A stretch of 64,000 nucleotides of DNA from a bacterium (lineage in GTDB: Bacteria > Arandabacterota > Arandabacteria > Arandabacterales > Arandabacteraceae), in contig JAOZOU010000004.1 of the NCBI GenBank assembly GCA_029933125.1, forward strand, positions 280,133 through 344,132, in the 5' to 3' direction. Positions 5,556 through 21,081 of the stretch are shown here, piece after piece; positions within the stretch are counted from its first letter, which is position 1; each line of letters begins with the position of its first letter. The notes under the pieces are model-generated. The model saw nothing but the letters and a program-made list of their open reading frames with translations. It made no database searches and was not told where the DNA came from. A program made the translations under genes and the position numbers.

Positions 5556-6614
5556 TTAGGGTAGGAGAACGTAGGTAGTTTCAGCCGAAGATTGCCAGTA
5601 GGTAAAGCGAGCTCCTCGTAACGACTGGATTTCATTCTGACTTATCAAACCCTCTTCAACAAGCTCTTCTAGACTGTCGGGGTAACATCCTTTCACCAAT
5701 TTATAGGCTTCGAGTGCAAAGTTCAGATCATCTATCCTCCGCTGTTCGACAAATGAAGCCATGGTTTCGGTAAGATGTTTCATGGATGCCTTTGAATCTG
5801 TGTTGATAATAGCAAACCTGATTGCGGTTGAGATGGCGACGATTACCAGAGCTAAGATCCATGAACGCAGATGTGTGACTTTTGGCCTGGATACAACATC
5901 CTCGCTTTGCCCTTCAACTATTGCAACTATCCCGAGCGCGAACAGGCGTTCAAGGCAATCAAGAGTCTCGATCTCCTCACACTGGCTGATCTCAAGGATC
6001 TCGTCAATTGTTCGCTCGCCATCTACCAGTTGTAGGACCTGCTTATCCACGTCTTCGAGTGCCAGCTCCTCGAGATTCGAGACTGCGACGCGAATCTTGG
6101 TGTCGAAGGATGGTAGGAATCTCCTTATCTCATCGACTTCATCCTTTCGGCGCAGGGCCTCCATGAGGATTGGCTCCAAACGCATGGGTTTGACCACATT
6201 TTTCTCCGGTGGAGAATCGGTTGTGGAGATGAATTCAAAAGTTCCCGTTTCCCATTTCACCACCGTCTCAAGTGTTTCGACGACGTATTCGGAAAGCAGG
6301 CTTGCAAGCTTGGATTTATCAAGTAAGTTTCGATTGAGAATTATCTCTATTGTATCGCCACCCTGGTTTTGTTTGAGTTCACTAATTTGATTGGCGGTTT
6401 CAATATCTATTGCTCCCTTTTCTCTGAGGTAGCTAAGGAAAGTGTCTCGGCCACTCTGACGACGATCGCGGGTAGATACTACCTTACCGCTTTCAAAGAA
6501 TATGCTTGCCGATCTTCCACGACTTCTGAGATGCAATATCCCTGTCTTCTCTTGCATGGCAATCATCTGCAGGATTTCTGCGATGCTGAAGGATCCAATT
6601 TCACCCTTAAGCAT
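5556..6614 (-). CDS. DUF4388 (PATAN-like) domain protein with one membrane segment
   Basis: A 352-residue protein. The first 110 residues form a DUF4388 domain (LKGEIGSFSIAEILQMIA ... KTGILHL ... GKVVSTRD), found in regulatory proteins of gliding and signalling systems. A winged-helix-like section follows (VDGERTIDEILEIS). A single hydrophobic segment (WILALVIVAISTAIRFAII) at about residues 250-268 precedes a small C-terminal domain, which suggests a cytoplasmic N-terminus with a tail outside the membrane. Its ATG overlaps the end of the TPR protein gene by eight bases, so the two are cotranscribed and probably work together. The precise role is unknown. Confidence 0.75.
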   Translation of the reverse strand: MLKGEIGSFSIAEILQMIAMQEKTGILHLRSRGRSASIFFESGKVVSTRDRRQSGRDTFLSYLREKGAIDIETANQISELKQNQGGDTIEIILNRNLLDKSKLASLLSEYVVETLETVVKWETGTFEFISTTDSPPEKNVVKPMRLEPILMEALRRKDEVDEIRRFLPSFDTKIRVAVSNLEELALEDVDKQVLQLVDGERTIDEILEISQCEEIETLDCLERLFALGIVAIVEGQSEDVVSRPKVTHLRSWILALVIVAISTAIRFAIINTDSKASMKHLTETMASFVEQRRIDDLNFALEAYKLVKGCYPDSLEELVEEGLISQNEIQSLRGARFTYWQSSAETTYVLLP

Positions 6615-8355
6615 TTGAGTGCTCCTCTCTGGCTTTCTTCAGTGTCACTCGAAACATTCGCCAGACATAGAAGGCATAGCAGATTGCTGAGAGAGGTAGC
6701 AGCCACCCATTAAAGCTCGCTGCTCTCAGATTCGGAAGTGGCTTGATGAGGGGACCGTTTGCCACGAGCAAGAGTAGCAGAGATGAGAAGCAGGCTGTGA
6801 TCAGCAAGCCCTTGAAGCGCTTTCCAGTCATGTGGTACAGCGTACCGGGCAGGAGAAGCCCAAAGATGATGGTTAGCCACCTGCTTCGCCGTTCGAGCTC
6901 AAGAATTCTTTGGTTATATCGAAATTCCAATTCGCGATGCTCATGGTGGGCACTGGCGATCGTGGCACAGGCCTTGCAAAGGAGTTGCTTGCCACGGCGT
7001 CTCGTTACCGGCAAGGGAATTGGTTCGTCACATATGTCGCAAGTCGCGGGTATGCGCAACCTGTAAGCCCCATAACCGAAGGCAAGGGCAACTACAACCA
7101 GAATTATAGAGCCCAGCGGTCCCGATTCCACTGGATGATAGGTCATTCTTAGATAGTCATTATCGGGGCTCAGGGCCAGCTGCCAAAGGACACGAGTCTG
7201 CAAGTTCATGGGGACAGGCCCAGGTTCTTGAGCAGTCAACAGTGTACGTATAGTGCCGAAGTCAAGGGCTGATGCCTTTGCTAGCTCCTCCTCTGCGAGA
7301 TCATATTCAAGAAGTGCATTGAGGACCTGAGAATAGTTGTAGTGAACGATGGCGGCTCGCTGTCCATACTTAAGAGCTGTTTCAAACATGCGCTTAGCTT
7401 GCTTGAGGTTTCCAAGTTCGTAATAGGCCACGCCAATGTTATTGAACACAGCTGCATTGGACGGACTGAACTTTGTAACCAGATTGAAATGGTCGATGGC
7501 TTGGCGATATTGCTTGGATTTAAGGCTAAGGAGGCCTGTTATGAACTGTCCGACGGGATCGAATTTCTTTTGGGATCTGTTGGTTGCGTAAGCTCTTACG
7601 AGCCATGTCTTGTCAACCTTGTCAGCGAGGGATGCGAGGCGTACTGTAGAATGGGGCAGCTGTGTCGAAAGTATCCTGCCCGTCAAAGTGAGAACACCTC
7701 CGATGAGCAAGAGATAGACTGCAAACACAACTATAATGCGTCTTTCCCCGGAGCCAGCAAATCTCCAGACGCCTGCTGCACCGATTACACATATCCACGT
7801 CAACATAACAACAGGGCCACGGCTTGAGGTGACGAGGATGAGACCTGCAACGAGTGCATACATTACTGCCTTGCCATTTTTCCCCAGGAGCCATTCAGGC
7901 AAGCTGATCTGAAGCGAAGCCCAAATGAGTCGGGCATATCGGAGAAGTATAAAGACGATTGCGATGTAGATAGCAACACTGACTGCAATAACACCTACTG
8001 CAACTGTGTTTGATAACAAAACTGCCTGATAGAAGAAGTTCGAGAAAAGAAGCTTTACCCCTATCGCAAATTCTAGGAATGCATCCATTATCGATCTTCT
8101 GGCATAGACCTGAGCGAGAGCAAAATGGGGTTCGGGTGCATCCCGCATGTAGGTTGAAGCCTCAAGATAGCTTTTGATAGCTCCCTCAACGTCACCTTGC
8201 TCAAGTTGCCTGTCACCCTTCCAGAGACTGACCTTAGCCTCAAGAAGCGGACTCGAATGCATCTTGTTTTCCTGGAGCGGTTGGCCCCAGATAGGCATAG
8301 CAAACCCCAGAAAGACGGCAATGCTAAGTGCAAGACTTTTGGCGGTCAAGCTCAT
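6607..8355 (-). CDS. Membrane TPR protein with a C-terminal zinc-ribbon segment
   Basis: A 582-residue protein with an N-terminal signal or membrane segment (LALSIAVFLGFAMPIWGQ). A first TPR-like pair (LEQGDVEGAIKSYLEAS) comes next, then a cluster of four or five membrane segments (about residues 105-250). TPR repeats follow (QAIDHFNLVTKFSPSNAAVF, AYYELGNLKQAKRMFETALK). Near the C-terminus are another membrane segment, a CxxC...CxxC ribbon (CDICDEPIP ... LLCKACA) and two or three more membrane segments. AAGGGG precedes the ATG. It is first in a two-gene operon with the DUF4388 protein. I do not recognise a named family; the layout suggests a scaffold or assembly factor. Confidence 0.75.
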   Translation of the reverse strand: MSLTAKSLALSIAVFLGFAMPIWGQPLQENKMHSSPLLEAKVSLWKGDRQLEQGDVEGAIKSYLEASTYMRDAPEPHFALAQVYARRSIMDAFLEFAIGVKLLFSNFFYQAVLLSNTVAVGVIAVSVAIYIAIVFILLRYARLIWASLQISLPEWLLGKNGKAVMYALVAGLILVTSSRGPVVMLTWICVIGAAGVWRFAGSGERRIIVVFAVYLLLIGGVLTLTGRILSTQLPHSTVRLASLADKVDKTWLVRAYATNRSQKKFDPVGQFITGLLSLKSKQYRQAIDHFNLVTKFSPSNAAVFNNIGVAYYELGNLKQAKRMFETALKYGQRAAIVHYNYSQVLNALLEYDLAEEELAKASALDFGTIRTLLTAQEPGPVPMNLQTRVLWQLALSPDNDYLRMTYHPVESGPLGSIILVVVALAFGYGAYRLRIPATCDICDEPIPLPVTRRRGKQLLCKACATIASAHHEHRELEFRYNQRILELERRSRWLTIIFGLLLPGTLYHMTGKRFKGLLITACFSSLLLLLVANGPLIKPLPNLRAASFNGWLLPLSAICYAFYVWRMFRVTLKKAREEHSNA

Positions 8356-12634: not shown

Positions 12635-13081
12635 TTAGGAGACCTGGACGGGGATCTCCTTGGCTTTCTTCTCCTCGAGCTTGGGCATCGTGACCTTGAG
12701 AACACCGTCTTTGTAGACAGCTTTGACTTTATTGGCGTCGACCTCAACCGGCAGCGCTACAGAGCGCTTGAAGTAGCCATAAGCCCGCTCAACCCTGTGT
12801 ACATTCTCGTTCTCTTCAGTCTTCTCCTGCTTCTTCTCACCACTGATCGTAAGAACATCGTTGTTGACGCTGACCTTGATGTCGTCTCGCTTGAGACCCG
12901 GCAGCTCGAGGGTTGCGATTACTTCGTTGTCAGTCTCAGTGATGTCCATTGCCGGATACCAATCCCCCTCATAGGTCTCCGTCGAAGGTAGCGTTCTCCC
13001 ATAGAATTCGTTGAAGAGTCTATCAATTTCATCTCGAAGACTCAGCATGCTCCTAAACGGCGTCCATCTGATGATCGCCAT
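12635..13081 (-). CDS. Small heat-shock protein Hsp20 (alpha-crystallin family)
   Basis: A 148-residue ATP-independent holdase chaperone. The alpha-crystallin domain runs from about residue 40 to 135 and includes MDITETDNEVIATLELPGL and the conserved AYKDGVLKVTMPK-like element (VYKDGVLKVTMPK). The start at 13081 has a perfect AGGAGGT seven bases upstream (13095-13089); a longer reading to 13168 would run through that site. Upstream are both a sigma54-type and a sigma70-type promoter, which points to dual control of a stress chaperone. Confidence 0.93.
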   Translation of the reverse strand: MAIIRWTPFRSMLSLRDEIDRLFNEFYGRTLPSTETYEGDWYPAMDITETDNEVIATLELPGLKRDDIKVSVNNDVLTISGEKKQEKTEENENVHRVERAYGYFKRSVALPVEVDANKVKAVYKDGVLKVTMPKLEEKKAKEIPVQVS

Positions 13082-13123
13082 TTGAATCACCTCCTTTTCT
13101 CGTGATTCCACCTGATTCCATTC

Positions 13124-13138
13124 GCAAAGAGTGTGCCA
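13124..13138 (-). promoter_or_regulatory. sigma54 (-24/-12) promoter upstream of hsp20
   Basis: The minus strand reads TGGCAC (13138-13133), five bases, TTGC (13127-13124), an exact match to the sigma54 core TGGCAC-N5-TTGC. The predicted start near 13113 leaves a leader of about 32 bases carrying the AGGAGGT site of hsp20. No rpoN gene is in the window, but an AAA activator is encoded at 16841-19882. Confidence 0.65.
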
Positions 13139-13167
13139 GGCTCGAGCTCCTGAAGATCTGAGCGCCA

Positions 13168-13196
13168 ATTCTTTGAAAAATCAGCAATTACGTCAA
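13168..13196 (-). promoter_or_regulatory. Second, sigma70-type promoter upstream of hsp20
   Basis: Minus strand TTGACG (13196-13191), 17 bases, AAGAAT (13173-13168). Matches are 5/6 and 4/6. It lies upstream of the sigma54-type element and could supply basal expression. Confidence 0.4.
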
Positions 13197-13220
13197 TGCA
13201 TCTTTGGAGACACGCTGTTT

Positions 13221-13279
13221 CCATAGCTTGCCAACTTGGCTTAACTCTGCCGCTATGGACGTCCTCGTAGCAAGAGGAC
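13221..13279. promoter_or_regulatory. Cluster of inverted repeats between hsp20 and pdaD, possible activator sites
   Basis: CCATAG (13221-13226) and CTATGG (13253-13258) flank the palindrome GCCAACTTGGC (13230-13240). Next to them is the hairpin GTCCTC-N7-GAGGAC (13261-13279). The palindrome is about 117 bases upstream of the predicted sigma54 start of hsp20, where enhancer sites commonly lie. Assignment is inference. Confidence 0.3.
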
Positions 13280-13306
13280 TGTCAGTCTGGCAAATTCTAT
13301 TAGGGC

Positions 13307-13376
13307 TTGACAAAACCCGGGTCGTGTTAAATCATTAGCGGTCGGCGAAGCTAATGACTGGAGGTGTAGTCTCCAG
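13307..13376 (+). promoter_or_regulatory. pdaD promoter region with two tandem hairpins
   Basis: TTGACA at 13307-13312 is followed by only weak -10 candidates (for example TAAATC at 13328). Two inverted repeats follow at once: CATTAGC (13333-13339) with GCTAATG (13350-13356), and CTGGAG (13358-13363) with CTCCAG (13371-13376). The first overlaps the expected transcription start and the second would lie in the leader. They could be operators or an RNA control element for the arginine decarboxylase. Confidence 0.4.
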
Positions 13377-16840: not shown

Positions 16841-19800
16841 ATGGAAGATCCATGTGGTGGGCCTGGCGAGCGAGAAGACGAAGATCCCAAGCCTGAAAAC
16901 ATTCGTTCTTCAACAGAAGACCTAGGCAATTTCTGTCTTGCCACTGGCGAGTTTAGTACGGCCATAGAGTATTTCACCCGAGTTCTTTGCACCTGCAATG
17001 CTGATGCCTCCCCATCGAAGAAAGCCTCCCTCCTCAGGAAGTTGGCCATCTGTTATTGCAAGATGGGCAAGTGCGATCATGCTCTTGAGCTTCTTGACAA
17101 GGCTTTTGCTCTTGTTGCTGACGGCGAAGATCCATTCGAACTGGCACGCATAATAGGGGAGCGGGGCTGGGTGCACTTCAAACGTGGTGAGTATGAGCTC
17201 TCTGAAGCAGACTTGCAAGCCGGTTTGGATATCCTCATCGGTGAAGAAAGAGGGAAGGTGATTGGTCGCTTCTACAACCGTCTGGGTGGTGTCTTTTACC
17301 GCAGGGGTGAGATCGATAAGGCTATGGATTTCTACCGAGCAGCTCTGGGTGTAGCGAGATCGCTTGACGAACGTGAGCTTGTCGGTGTGTGCCTCAATAA
17401 TCTGGGTCTAGTCTGCAAGAGCCAGGGTCGCTGGAACGAGGCAAAGGCATTCTTCGAGGATGCCCTGGCGATTGCTGAGGAAGTAGGGCAGCATTTTGAG
17501 AAGGGAACAAGACTCAACAATCTCGGTATTGTTTATTCCAAGCTGGGTGATTGGAAGAAGGCATATCGCTACTGGAGTGAGGCTCTCAACATTTTCGTCA
17601 GCATAGGTAATCGCTGGGAACTCGTCTTGGTTTATATAGCACTCGGCAACTATTATCTCACCTATCGCGATTTTGACCGTGCAGAGGAGTACTATGTGCG
17701 GGCTATGAGGGAAAGTTCCGACAACGGGGATGCGCGTACTGCTGCCTTGAGCTTCGAGGCTATGGGCGATCTTCATCAGGCATGTGGGAGATTTGACTCG
17801 GCTCTAAGGTGCTACCATGAGGCGCTGGAGATAGCGGCGGAGATAGCCCCAACGAGCGATATTGTTGCCGAAGTGAAAAGACGTCTGGCCGACCTCGAAG
17901 TCAAGCGAGGTAATTACAAGGAAGCCCTCGATCTGAGTAAGCAGGCCGTTGAGACGTCGAGTAAAATCGGTGATGTTTTCGAGCACGCGTGTGCGATTCG
18001 GTCTCGCTCGTGTGCTTTGCATTACCTTGGTGAGTGGGAGCAGGCAAGAAATGGTTTCGAGAAGGCAATTGATATTTTCTCGAGCCTTGGCAGTAAAAAG
18101 GAGCTTGCGACTACATATCTCATGGCAGGCGAGCTCATGCTATCTGAGGATGCTCACAGAAAGCTGGCTGCATCGTATCTTTCCTTGGCTGCCTCCCTCT
18201 TTGATGAGATGGGAATGACCTACGAAGCAGGCCTCGCTTCGCTGGGGCTTGGCAAGATCGCAGCGGCAAAAGGTGATGTTGAGTTCTGCTATGAGCTTCT
18301 TGATAGGGTTGCCAATGCGCTTGACGAACAAGCGCCCGAGGAGCTTCGTGAGATGATTCGGAGGATAGGGCTTGAGGCCGATGAAAGCGTTGCAAGGCTA
18401 TCGGTAAGCGATTCAAACGATCTGGCAAGCTTCAATGAGATTGTTGGCAAGATTCTGGCAACCCATGGCGACGGTGAGAGAATGCAACTAGTGCTAAACG
18501 GTTGTCTCGATCGGACAGTTGCGGAGCGAGGCGCTATACTTGTGGGGACTCGTGACCATCTGGAGGCAGTTGCAAGCTCCAATTTCGAGAGCCAGGATAT
18601 CGAAACAATCGGGGTACTGGTCAGGCGTCTTGCTGAAGCATCTGGCTCTTCACTGAGACCGATTGTGACCACTTGCCTCAAGGATGACATGCGCTTTGGC
18701 TTTAGCGCCCAGAATGGTGTCCCGGAGCGCGCAGCTCTATGTGTCCCCTTAAAAATCAGCGACAGCGAGTATGCTTTCATTTATCTTGATTCACCATCCA
18801 AGAGTGTTTTTGGAAAATCACAGGTTGAATTCGTGGTAGCAATGGCTGGCATCCTCAAGACGGTGATATCCGAGGCTAAACTTGGAAGGTACGTTGAGGA
18901 AACTCGGTATCTAAGAAGCAAGCTCAAGGACAGCAAGCGCATAGGTGGCCTCATCACTCAGAATCGTAAGATGCTCGAGATAGTAGACGCTATTCAATTC
19001 CTTTGTCGTACATCGACGACTGTGCTGATTGAAGGTGAGACGGGTACAGGGAAGGAGATGTTGGCAAGGGCTATCCACATGTGTGGCGACAGGAAGCGAA
19101 AGCCATTTGTAACGATCGATTGTTCAGCGCTTGCAAACGATATAATCGAGAGCGAGCTCTTCGGTCATGTCAAGGGTGCCTTCACTGATGCCAAGGCGGC
19201 CAAGAAGGGCTTGTTTGAGGAGGCACATGGAGGGACGGTCTTCCTTGACGAGATTGATAAGACATCTCAGAAGTTCCAGCAGCGACTCCTGCAGGTGGTT
19301 GACAAGCGAGAGTTCAAACCAGTGGGATCGACAACCTCACGGAGAGTTGACTTCCGCCTGATATGTGCAACCAATAGGGACCTGGCAGAGCAAGTGCGGA
19401 CAGGTCATTTCCTTGAGGATCTCTATTACAGATTGAAGGTGATCTCTCTTAAGATTCCGCCGCTGAGGGAAAGACGGGATGATATACCCCTTCTAGCCGA
19501 ACACTTTCTCGAAGTTTACAATGAACGTCTTGGTAAGTCTGTGGTCGGTTTCACCTCAGGAGCAATGGATCTCCTCGTAAGCTATTATTGGCCTGGTAAC
19601 GTAAGGCAGCTGGAGCATGAAATCGAACGAGCTGTCACTTTCTCTAGAGATGGTGACCTCATTGTTCCAGATCTCTTTTCCGAAGAGGTGAGGGGGTGGA
19701 ACATGCCCCTTGGGGAGACCAAGGTGAAGCCCATAGCCCAGGCTGTAGAGGAGGTCGAGAAAGCCCTAATAAGGGAGGCTATGAGAAGATTTGGTGGAAA

Positions 19801-19882
19801 TAAAACTAAGGTCGCAAAGAGCCTCGGCCTGAGCCGAAGGGGACTCCTCAACAAGCTTCATCGTTACCGCATAAAGGCGTAA
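16841..19882 (+). CDS. TPR-GAF-AAA+-Fis transcriptional activator (sigma54 activator-like)
   Basis: A 1013-residue regulator. Residues about 15-500 are a long TPR array (for example RFYNRLGGVFYRRGEIDKAM, LNNLGLVCKSQGRWNEA). A GAF-like domain follows at about 530-690. The AAA+ domain has Walker A GETGTGKE near residue 731, Walker B GTVFLDEID near 798, and a C-terminal Fis helix-turn-helix (NKTKVAKSLGLSRRGLLNKL). The sigma54-contact loop reads GAFTDA rather than GAFTGA (about residue 779). There is no receiver domain, so TPR and GAF sensing probably control it. GAAAGGGTGAC precedes the ATG. A sigma54-type promoter lies 3.7 kb away at hsp20. Confidence 0.9.
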   Translation: MEDPCGGPGEREDEDPKPENIRSSTEDLGNFCLATGEFSTAIEYFTRVLCTCNADASPSKKASLLRKLAICYCKMGKCDHALELLDKAFALVADGEDPFELARIIGERGWVHFKRGEYELSEADLQAGLDILIGEERGKVIGRFYNRLGGVFYRRGEIDKAMDFYRAALGVARSLDERELVGVCLNNLGLVCKSQGRWNEAKAFFEDALAIAEEVGQHFEKGTRLNNLGIVYSKLGDWKKAYRYWSEALNIFVSIGNRWELVLVYIALGNYYLTYRDFDRAEEYYVRAMRESSDNGDARTAALSFEAMGDLHQACGRFDSALRCYHEALEIAAEIAPTSDIVAEVKRRLADLEVKRGNYKEALDLSKQAVETSSKIGDVFEHACAIRSRSCALHYLGEWEQARNGFEKAIDIFSSLGSKKELATTYLMAGELMLSEDAHRKLAASYLSLAASLFDEMGMTYEAGLASLGLGKIAAAKGDVEFCYELLDRVANALDEQAPEELREMIRRIGLEADESVARLSVSDSNDLASFNEIVGKILATHGDGERMQLVLNGCLDRTVAERGAILVGTRDHLEAVASSNFESQDIETIGVLVRRLAEASGSSLRPIVTTCLKDDMRFGFSAQNGVPERAALCVPLKISDSEYAFIYLDSPSKSVFGKSQVEFVVAMAGILKTVISEAKLGRYVEETRYLRSKLKDSKRIGGLITQNRKMLEIVDAIQFLCRTSTTVLIEGETGTGKEMLARAIHMCGDRKRKPFVTIDCSALANDIIESELFGHVKGAFTDAKAAKKGLFEEAHGGTVFLDEIDKTSQKFQQRLLQVVDKREFKPVGSTTSRRVDFRLICATNRDLAEQVRTGHFLEDLYYRLKVISLKIPPLRERRDDIPLLAEHFLEVYNERLGKSVVGFTSGAMDLLVSYYWPGNVRQLEHEIERAVTFSRDGDLIVPDLFSEEVRGWNMPLGETKVKPIAQAVEEVEKALIREAMRRFGGNKTKVAKSLGLSRRGLLNKLHRYRIKA

Positions 19883-20008
19883 ACTGCCTTCACGTTGGAC
19901 TGTTACCTTGTTTACCACTGTAATCGTTTGCAACATAAAGAGTTAGCGTATATCGAGATCCACTGTGAACCTTCTTCACGTTTAAACCCTGCCCTTGGCC
20001 GTTATCGG

Positions 20009-20038
20009 TTGCCTCACAAGAATCATGAATCTTGTAAT
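20009..20038 (+). promoter_or_regulatory. Promoter with palindromic operator upstream of the sigma factor gene
   Basis: TTGCCT (20009-20014), 18 bases, TGTAAT (20033-20038). The spacer holds an 18-base near-perfect palindrome, CAAGAATCATGAATCTTG (20017-20034), a likely repressor or activator site. The rest of the 221-base gap after the AAA regulator shows no gene. Confidence 0.45.
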
Positions 20039-20103
20039 ACGTTGTGATCCAATAAGTTAATCTGGCAGGAAACGATTCAACTTTGGGGCTTTCGGCACGA
20101 TGA

Positions 20104-21081
20104 TTGCATTTTGCAAGGAGTGAGAAGCCTCTCGTCCAGAGGCAGTGTCGACAGGACCTGGAGATGTGGTGCCAAGACCCGATGGAAGACAACACGCAAG
20201 CTGATTCCGTCGCATATTCGCGTTCGATCGAGAGGGGCGCTTCTGGGCAATCCTCGGAGGGTGATCTTGCAGCTTATATGCGAGCGATCAGTCGTATCCC
20301 TTTGCTCACCAAGCAGCAGGAACGCCAGCTTGCTCAACGGGTTCGCCGCGGGGACGCTAAGGCTAAGGAGCAAATGATCCTGGCAAACCTGAGGTTAGTA
20401 GTTTCGATAGCTCGGAAGTATCAAGGGATGGGGTTACCCCTTGCAGATCTCATTAGTGAGGGCAACGTAGGTCTCATGAAGGCAGTGGAGAGGTTTAGAC
20501 ACGAAAAGGGATTCAGATTCAGCACCTACGCTTCAAAGTGGATACGTCAAGCCATCACCAAGACACTTGCTAATCATGGCAGGACGGTTAGACTACCGGC
20601 AAATGTACTCGAGATGCTTAGGCGAGCTCGTGATGTTGAGGACGAATCTTTGCGCAGCCATGGCTCCGAAGCCAATGATCTCGAAATTTGTGACAGGCTG
20701 AGGGTTTCACGGAGAAGGTATGCACAGGTCGCCAATGCTTCGGTTACCTTCTCACTTGATTCCCCATATGCTCTCGATAGCGATCTCAATCTTCATGATG
20801 TGCTTCCTGATACATTGCACAAGGCACCTGATGAAGCTGCATTTAGCAGGATAAATGCTCACACGCTTGAGTCTCTGTTGGCGCATCTTTCTCGGCGCGA
20901 ACGAAGCATACTCTCATACAGATTTGGTCTTGAAGATGGAACAAAACGGTCGCTCGCTGAAACAGGCAAGATTGTTGGAATAACACGTGAGCGTATCCGC
21001 CAAATTGAAAAGCGAGCGATTGAGAAAATGAGGAAGGCGCTTCGCAAACGACGCATGCAGAAGCTCGTCAAAGGTGGCTAA
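20104..21081 (+). CDS. RNA polymerase sigma70-family factor (group 1/2-like)
   Basis: Up to 325 residues, with region 1.2 (DLAAYMRAISRIPLLTKQQE), region 2 (NLRLVVSIARKYQGMGLPL, the -10 recognition part GFRFSTYASKWIRQAI), region 3, and region 4 with the -35 helix-turn-helix (GITRERIRQIEKRAIEKMRK). It lacks the long region 1.1 of a housekeeping RpoD, so an alternative factor of RpoS/SigB-like size is likelier. The start is unclear: TTG 20104, ATG 20164 and ATG 20182 are in frame and none has a convincing ribosome site. It stands next to the TPR-AAA regulator. Confidence 0.88.
   Translation: MHFARSEKPLVQRQCRQDLEMWCQDPMEDNTQADSVAYSRSIERGASGQSSEGDLAAYMRAISRIPLLTKQQERQLAQRVRRGDAKAKEQMILANLRLVVSIARKYQGMGLPLADLISEGNVGLMKAVERFRHEKGFRFSTYASKWIRQAITKTLANHGRTVRLPANVLEMLRRARDVEDESLRSHGSEANDLEICDRLRVSRRRYAQVANASVTFSLDSPYALDSDLNLHDVLPDTLHKAPDEAAFSRINAHTLESLLAHLSRRERSILSYRFGLEDGTKRSLAETGKIVGITRERIRQIEKRAIEKMRKALRKRRMQKLVKGG

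Follow-up and report, generated by a model that had tools for sequence, protein, structure and literature searches.

The small heat-shock gene hsp20 is preceded by an exact sigma54 box and, further upstream, by a pair of conserved palindromes, and the same enhancer-like element and box stand before dnaK elsewhere in the same genome and before chaperone genes of other families. Taken as a whole, these features are probably best explained by AAA+-activated sigma54 transcription of hsp20 as part of one chaperone regulon with dnaK, a reading that we draw from the DNA sequence. Positions given below are those of the window, the whole stretch of 64,000 nucleotides that was analysed. In the mechanism we propose, sigma54 RNA polymerase would transcribe hsp20 from the box at 13138-13124, and a hexameric AAA+ enhancer-binding protein, seated on the paired palindromes at 13229-13241 and 13280-13292, would loop over and melt the promoter. 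The dnaK gene, with its own copy of the enhancer and box, would come under joint control with hsp20, and we infer that the signal may be heat or misfolded protein. A wider model, which we offer tentatively, is that of a sigma54 heat-shock regulon (dnaK, hsp20, groESL, clpB and lon) with a single enhancer, TGCCA-W3-TGGCA, in several lineages; in the lineage of the window a fused kinase-TPR-GAF-AAA protein encoded beside dnaK would switch the genes on, with kinase input gating expression instead of sigma32 or HrcA.

The hsp20 promoter region and its counterpart at dnaK

The hsp20 gene (12635-13081, minus strand) encodes a 148-residue protein that, from its open reading frame and a Pfam HSP20 match (E = 5.6e-26), is a small heat-shock protein of the ordinary type. 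On the same strand the exact sequence TGGCAC-N5-TTGC, already noted in a preliminary description of this DNA, lies at 13124-13138 (TGGCACACTCTTTGC), 42 bp from the ATG at 13081, with the GG at -24 and the GC at -12 correctly spaced for a sigma54 promoter. The predicted +1, counted from the -12 element at 13124, falls at about 13112, and the placement of leader and ribosome site described earlier is borne out by a leader of about 31 bases in which GGAGG (13090-13094, minus strand, by direct reading), retained in relatives, stands ahead of the ATG.

The preliminary description had held that its proposal would fail if the genome lacked rpoN. One rpoN match was found in the genome of the window, G000 (E = 4.3e-63; 3.23-Mb assembly, 97% complete), so that objection does not arise. 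The scan for further -24/-12 boxes that had been suggested returned 29 exact copies of TGGCAC-N5-TTGC on the two strands of this genome, one of them 60 bp ahead of dnaK on contig C76. At this density the probability of an exact box within an 85-bp upstream window is about 4e-4; many of the other copies fall within coding sequence, so the box alone is little proof. In the order, hsp20 was detected in G000, G001, G004 and G006 (the orthologs of the last three being 87, 57 and 53% identical, respectively), and an exact box lies 39-66 bp ahead of the ATG in all four, while G007, of the same class, has a box with a single mismatch. Three-way alignment of the upstream regions of G000, G001 and G004 reveals conservation of the box, the ribosome site and two palindromic blocks and little else; the box is the main conserved block just 5' of the gene, the other flanking DNA having diverged.

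Palindromes had also been described upstream of hsp20, at 13221-13279, and they are indeed present. The conserved element within them is the proximal palindrome AGCCAAGTTGGCA (13229-13241, minus strand), about 100 bp upstream of the -24 box, which has one mismatch to TGYCA-N3-TGRCA, is aligned in G001 and G004 and has copies at dnaK. A second conserved copy, the distal palindrome TGCCAGACTGACA (13280-13292, minus strand), lies just outside that interval, 51 bp or about five helical turns upstream of the proximal one; it matches TGYCA-N3-TGRCA exactly and has aligned copies in the same two relatives. The full 13-base consensus is not matched at both enhancer sites in the genome of the window. 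Palindromes of the TGYCA-N3-TGRCA form are common to the hsp20 and dnaK regions, about 100-150 bp upstream of the box, and are often paired at distances of about 30, 40 or 50 bp, near whole helical turns. Such paired and conserved palindromes have the features of a putative upstream enhancer for an AAA+ activator.

The dnaK gene carries a box in six genomes of the order, exact in G000, G001, G002 and G006 and with one mismatch (TGGCAT) in G003 and G004, at 60-102 bp from the ATG. Because the same enhancer and box precede both genes, hsp20 and dnaK would belong to one sigma54-type regulon. Upstream of the second dnaK paralog and of groES in the genome of the window, no sigma54 box was found. 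The search for CIRCE gave no match within five mismatches at the dnaK genes of the order (at least six) and at least eight mismatches at the hsp20 promoters of the class, which does not point to HrcA/CIRCE control; the hsp20 of the distant genome G014, where CIRCE is matched with four mismatches, is the exception among the promoters examined.

Search for the enhancer and box across genomes

Allowing at most one mismatch to TGYCA-N3-TGRCA, nine enhancer sites were counted in the dnaK regions of the order (6/6 regions; shuffle mean 0.20), eight in the hsp20 regions of the class (4/4; shuffle mean 0.14) and five in four regions of the distant genomes G008 and G014 (4/4; shuffle mean 0.08), and no site was present in any of five control gaps before a sigma70-family gene (0/5). 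The motif was fixed after inspection of the dnaK and hsp20 sets of the order and of G008 and G014, so these counts against shuffles describe the motif rather than test it, and independent evidence comes only from the search in other families. The exact sequence TGCCANNNTGGCA, tried as a stand-alone marker in the genome of the window, occurs six times, always within coding sequence or close to it, and is of no use alone because no copy has a box at the right distance.

To search 386 genomes we used a composite pattern, the enhancer plus the box at 86-116 bp, which is blind to gene identity, with the reversed pattern as control. The composite pattern was matched at 28 places in 21 genomes, representing 27 distinct promoters as one was counted twice, and the reversed pattern had no match in the 386 genomes. 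The genes downstream were read and then checked by profile search. Nineteen of the 27 promoters precede quality-control genes (dnaK six, hsp20 five, clpB three, lon three, groES one and an HtrA-like protease one); one cis element thus stands ahead of several chaperone and protease genes, as expected of a heat-shock regulon. The proportion is 17/23 outside the family of the window. If quality-control genes make up 1% of a genome, the binomial probability is about 1e-29, a figure that overstates the case because closely related genomes are among those matched (three from one genus, two from one family); counting each family and gene once gives, by our own count, about 12/17. The other matches precede DsrE-like genes (two), a UbiD gene (one) and CBM48/bactofilin-like genes beside a response regulator (two), lie inside a long frame (one) or are unassigned (two). 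With a looser pattern, applied to 25 genomes, the matches in the genome of the window were hsp20, dnaK and two that resemble chance, one in a tRNA region and one in coding sequence.

Since the same arrangement occurs elsewhere at dnaK, hsp20, clpB, lon and groES, the predicted regulon is not confined to this lineage. The sigma54 control of hsp20 put forward in the preliminary description is now strongly supported, at the level of sequence, by the presence of rpoN, by the conserved box and by an enhancer common to dnaK and to the chaperone genes of other families.

Relation to known heat-shock control

Heat-shock genes are classically controlled by sigma32, HrcA/CIRCE, HspR or stress sigma70-type factors. 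The Myxococcus xanthus heat-shock gene lonD uses the primary sigma factor, and its regulator HsfA is of the NtrC type. Closer to the present case, Escherichia coli ibpB, also a small heat-shock gene, is reportedly transcribed from sigma32 and sigma54 promoters and partly sigma54-dependent; the 125 bp before ibpB in K-12 MG1655 contain no good match to the box (at least five mismatches). In Chlamydia trachomatis the hrcA-grpE operon has tandem sigma66 and sigma54 promoters (PMC8762339) and so likewise combines a heat-shock operon with a sigma54 promoter, but repression through HrcA/CIRCE is the main control there, whereas here, the G014 hsp20 promoter apart, no good CIRCE match was found. A comparable case is that of M. 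xanthus, where the two-component system HsfA-HsfB turns on a gene for a heat-shock protease, lonD (Ueki and Inouye 2002, cited in PMC9548883).

The nearest precedent is a 2025 study (PMC12316311) in which sigma54 promoters predicted upstream of genes for chaperones and proteases were enriched in Planctomycetota and Bacteroidota, with GroEL, GroES, IbpA-type Hsp20, GrpE, DnaJ, DnaK, COG0542 and COG0466 among the enriched targets. Some of our distant genomes may belong to Planctomycetota or Bacteroidota. Neither upstream activating sequences nor bEBPs turned up in a text search of PMC12316311; unlike that study, we describe a shared enhancer motif, a different lineage for the window and a named candidate activator. 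Given PMC12316311, PMC8762339 and the reports on ibpB, a sigma54 promoter before hsp20 is of a kind already known. The shared enhancer appears to be new, and beyond PMC12316311 no prior account of such an enhancer, or of a regulon recognisable across families, was found in the open-licence literature. A sigma54-driven regulon, if real, would not be expressed in the absence of its activator, and chaperone synthesis would be coupled to a single ATP-driven sensor. The enhancer motif makes the idea directly testable by pointing to particular genes and sites and to a few candidate activators, and it offers a way of finding such regulons in genomes without known heat-shock regulators.

Candidate activators and alternative explanations

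The best single candidate for the activator, unproven and in our estimate somewhat short of probable, is a 1644-residue protein that combines Ser/Thr kinase, TPR, GAF, AAA and Fis domains and whose gene lies about 2 kb upstream of dnaK; another of the roughly 17 activators of the same genome is about as likely. The kinase-type gene is linked to dnaK in G000-G004, and the contig of G006 ends there. Its loop reads VATGV, and DVUA0100, with the similar loop GVATGV, is predicted to be active. Between this gene and dnaK, in all six genomes of the order that show the region, lies a gene for a 237-residue degenerate AAA protein (L093:9641-10351, plus strand), a relative of sigma54 activators that lacks both the GAFTGA loop and the DNA-binding domain and could be a partner or an inhibitor. 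In the order, dnaK is also preceded by the gene for a small conserved protein (L093:10383-10772, plus strand) for which there is a weak REase_AHJR-like match. An ortholog of the dnaK-linked activator was not found in G007, where the hsp20 box and enhancer are present, and no activator adjoins the chaperone genes of the distant genomes. Comparison of recognition helices across G000, G007, G008 and G014 revealed none common to all four. In G008 and G014 (L167 and L168) a separate Ser/Thr kinase gene adjoins that of a GAF-AAA activator whose helix, SLRWLxYxL, is unusual, and this pair is an unfused counterpart of the kinase-type activator.

Beside the other activator genes of G000, no convincing enhancer was found except at a response-regulator locus. 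An alternative, which we regard as rather unlikely, is that the chaperone enhancer is bound by this regulator, which has the helix DRANLHRKM and a neighbouring promoter of its own with TGTCA-N3-TGACA. Its gene adjoins a promoter found by the composite pattern in G001 and G004, its copies in G000 and G003 have similar sites nearby, and G007, without the kinase-type activator, has a copy with the DRANLHRKM helix. However, at positions 3 and 11 the regulator's sites carry T and A, but C and G are found there on both sides in 13 of the 19 chaperone enhancer sites. At L206, L207 and L177 the promoter adjoining the regulator gene has TGTCA-N3-YGACA together with an exact box and stands in front of a CBM48/bactofilin-like gene.

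The preliminary description had instead proposed a local circuit in which the regulator encoded from 16841 would activate hsp20 under redox or heat stress. This protein, EBP1 (16841-19882, plus strand, identified by Pfam), has the TPR-GAF-AAA-Fis architecture expected of a sigma54 activator, that is, an AAA+ domain with a seemingly usable GAFTGA-type loop and a Fis-type helix-turn-helix. The loop is GAFTDA in all orthologs, a variant held to be compatible with sigma54 activation, and DVU2106, which has GAFTDA, has assigned sigma54 targets. EBP1 also lies 3.6 kb from hsp20, within a block whose synteny is retained in G001 and G004. Against the local circuit, G002, G003 and G005 all retain EBP1 but yielded no hsp20 ortholog, and in G003 only hsp20 is missing from the block that begins at asnS and ends at the radical SAM gene. 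Moreover, EBP1 has conserved palindromes of its own that differ from those at hsp20 and are absent there, while the hsp20 motif is absent from the gaps after EBP1. EBP1 is thus an unlikely activator of hsp20, and we give the local circuit little credence.

The enhancer-like palindromes associated with EBP1 are GTAAACTGCCTTCAC (19879-19893, plus strand) and GTGAACCTTCTTCAC (19965-19979, plus strand), the former kept 86-88 bp from the latter in G000 and five other genomes of the order. The latter is exact in the same gap of G002-G005, with an exact copy in the gap of G007, and is one of only three exact GTGAA-N5-TTCAC sequences in the genome of the window; palindromes of this form are absent from the hsp20 promoters. 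They are followed by a sigma54-type box, CGGCACGATGATTGC (20093-20107, plus strand), with counterparts in G002-G005 and weaker or differently placed ones in G006 and G007, and by a gene for a group-2 sigma70-family factor of RpoD/RpoS-like type (20104-21081, plus strand; Pfam and NCBIfam), the true start codon of which lies inside the open frame. This gene directly follows EBP1 in every relative of the order and in G007. Because the palindromes and box lie in this gap and none of these palindromes is at hsp20, EBP1 most likely drives the adjacent sigma70-family gene. EBP1 and this gene (19879-21081) form a module kept across the order, in which a sigma70-family gene apparently driven by sigma54 is reminiscent of sigma cascades. 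In the EBP1 ortholog of G006 (L067, G006:C386) a single in-frame TAA interrupts the ELFG region, the mark of either a sequencing error or a pseudogene.

It is also very improbable that hsp20 is transcribed mainly from a sigma70-type site, with the sigma54 box secondary or inactive. The upstream sigma70-type promoter of the preliminary description does exist as a match, TTGACG-17-AAGAAT at 13196-13168, but it is weak (9/12) and has no aligned counterpart in G001 or G004, where the conserved blocks are the sigma54 box and the palindromes. That the hsp20 box is a chance match, as the 29 exact copies and the occurrence of several within coding sequence might suggest, is scarcely credible given that orthologs have kept the box, that the enhancer is shared, and given the outcome of the search in 386 genomes.

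Two further matches were seen in the window. A second exact TGGCAC-N5-TTGC, at 6963-6977 inside a long minus-strand frame (6607-8355), is probably due to chance, and a sigma70-type match, TTGACA-17-AATCAT at 13307-13335 (plus strand), faces the divergent gene for a pyruvoyl-dependent arginine decarboxylase.
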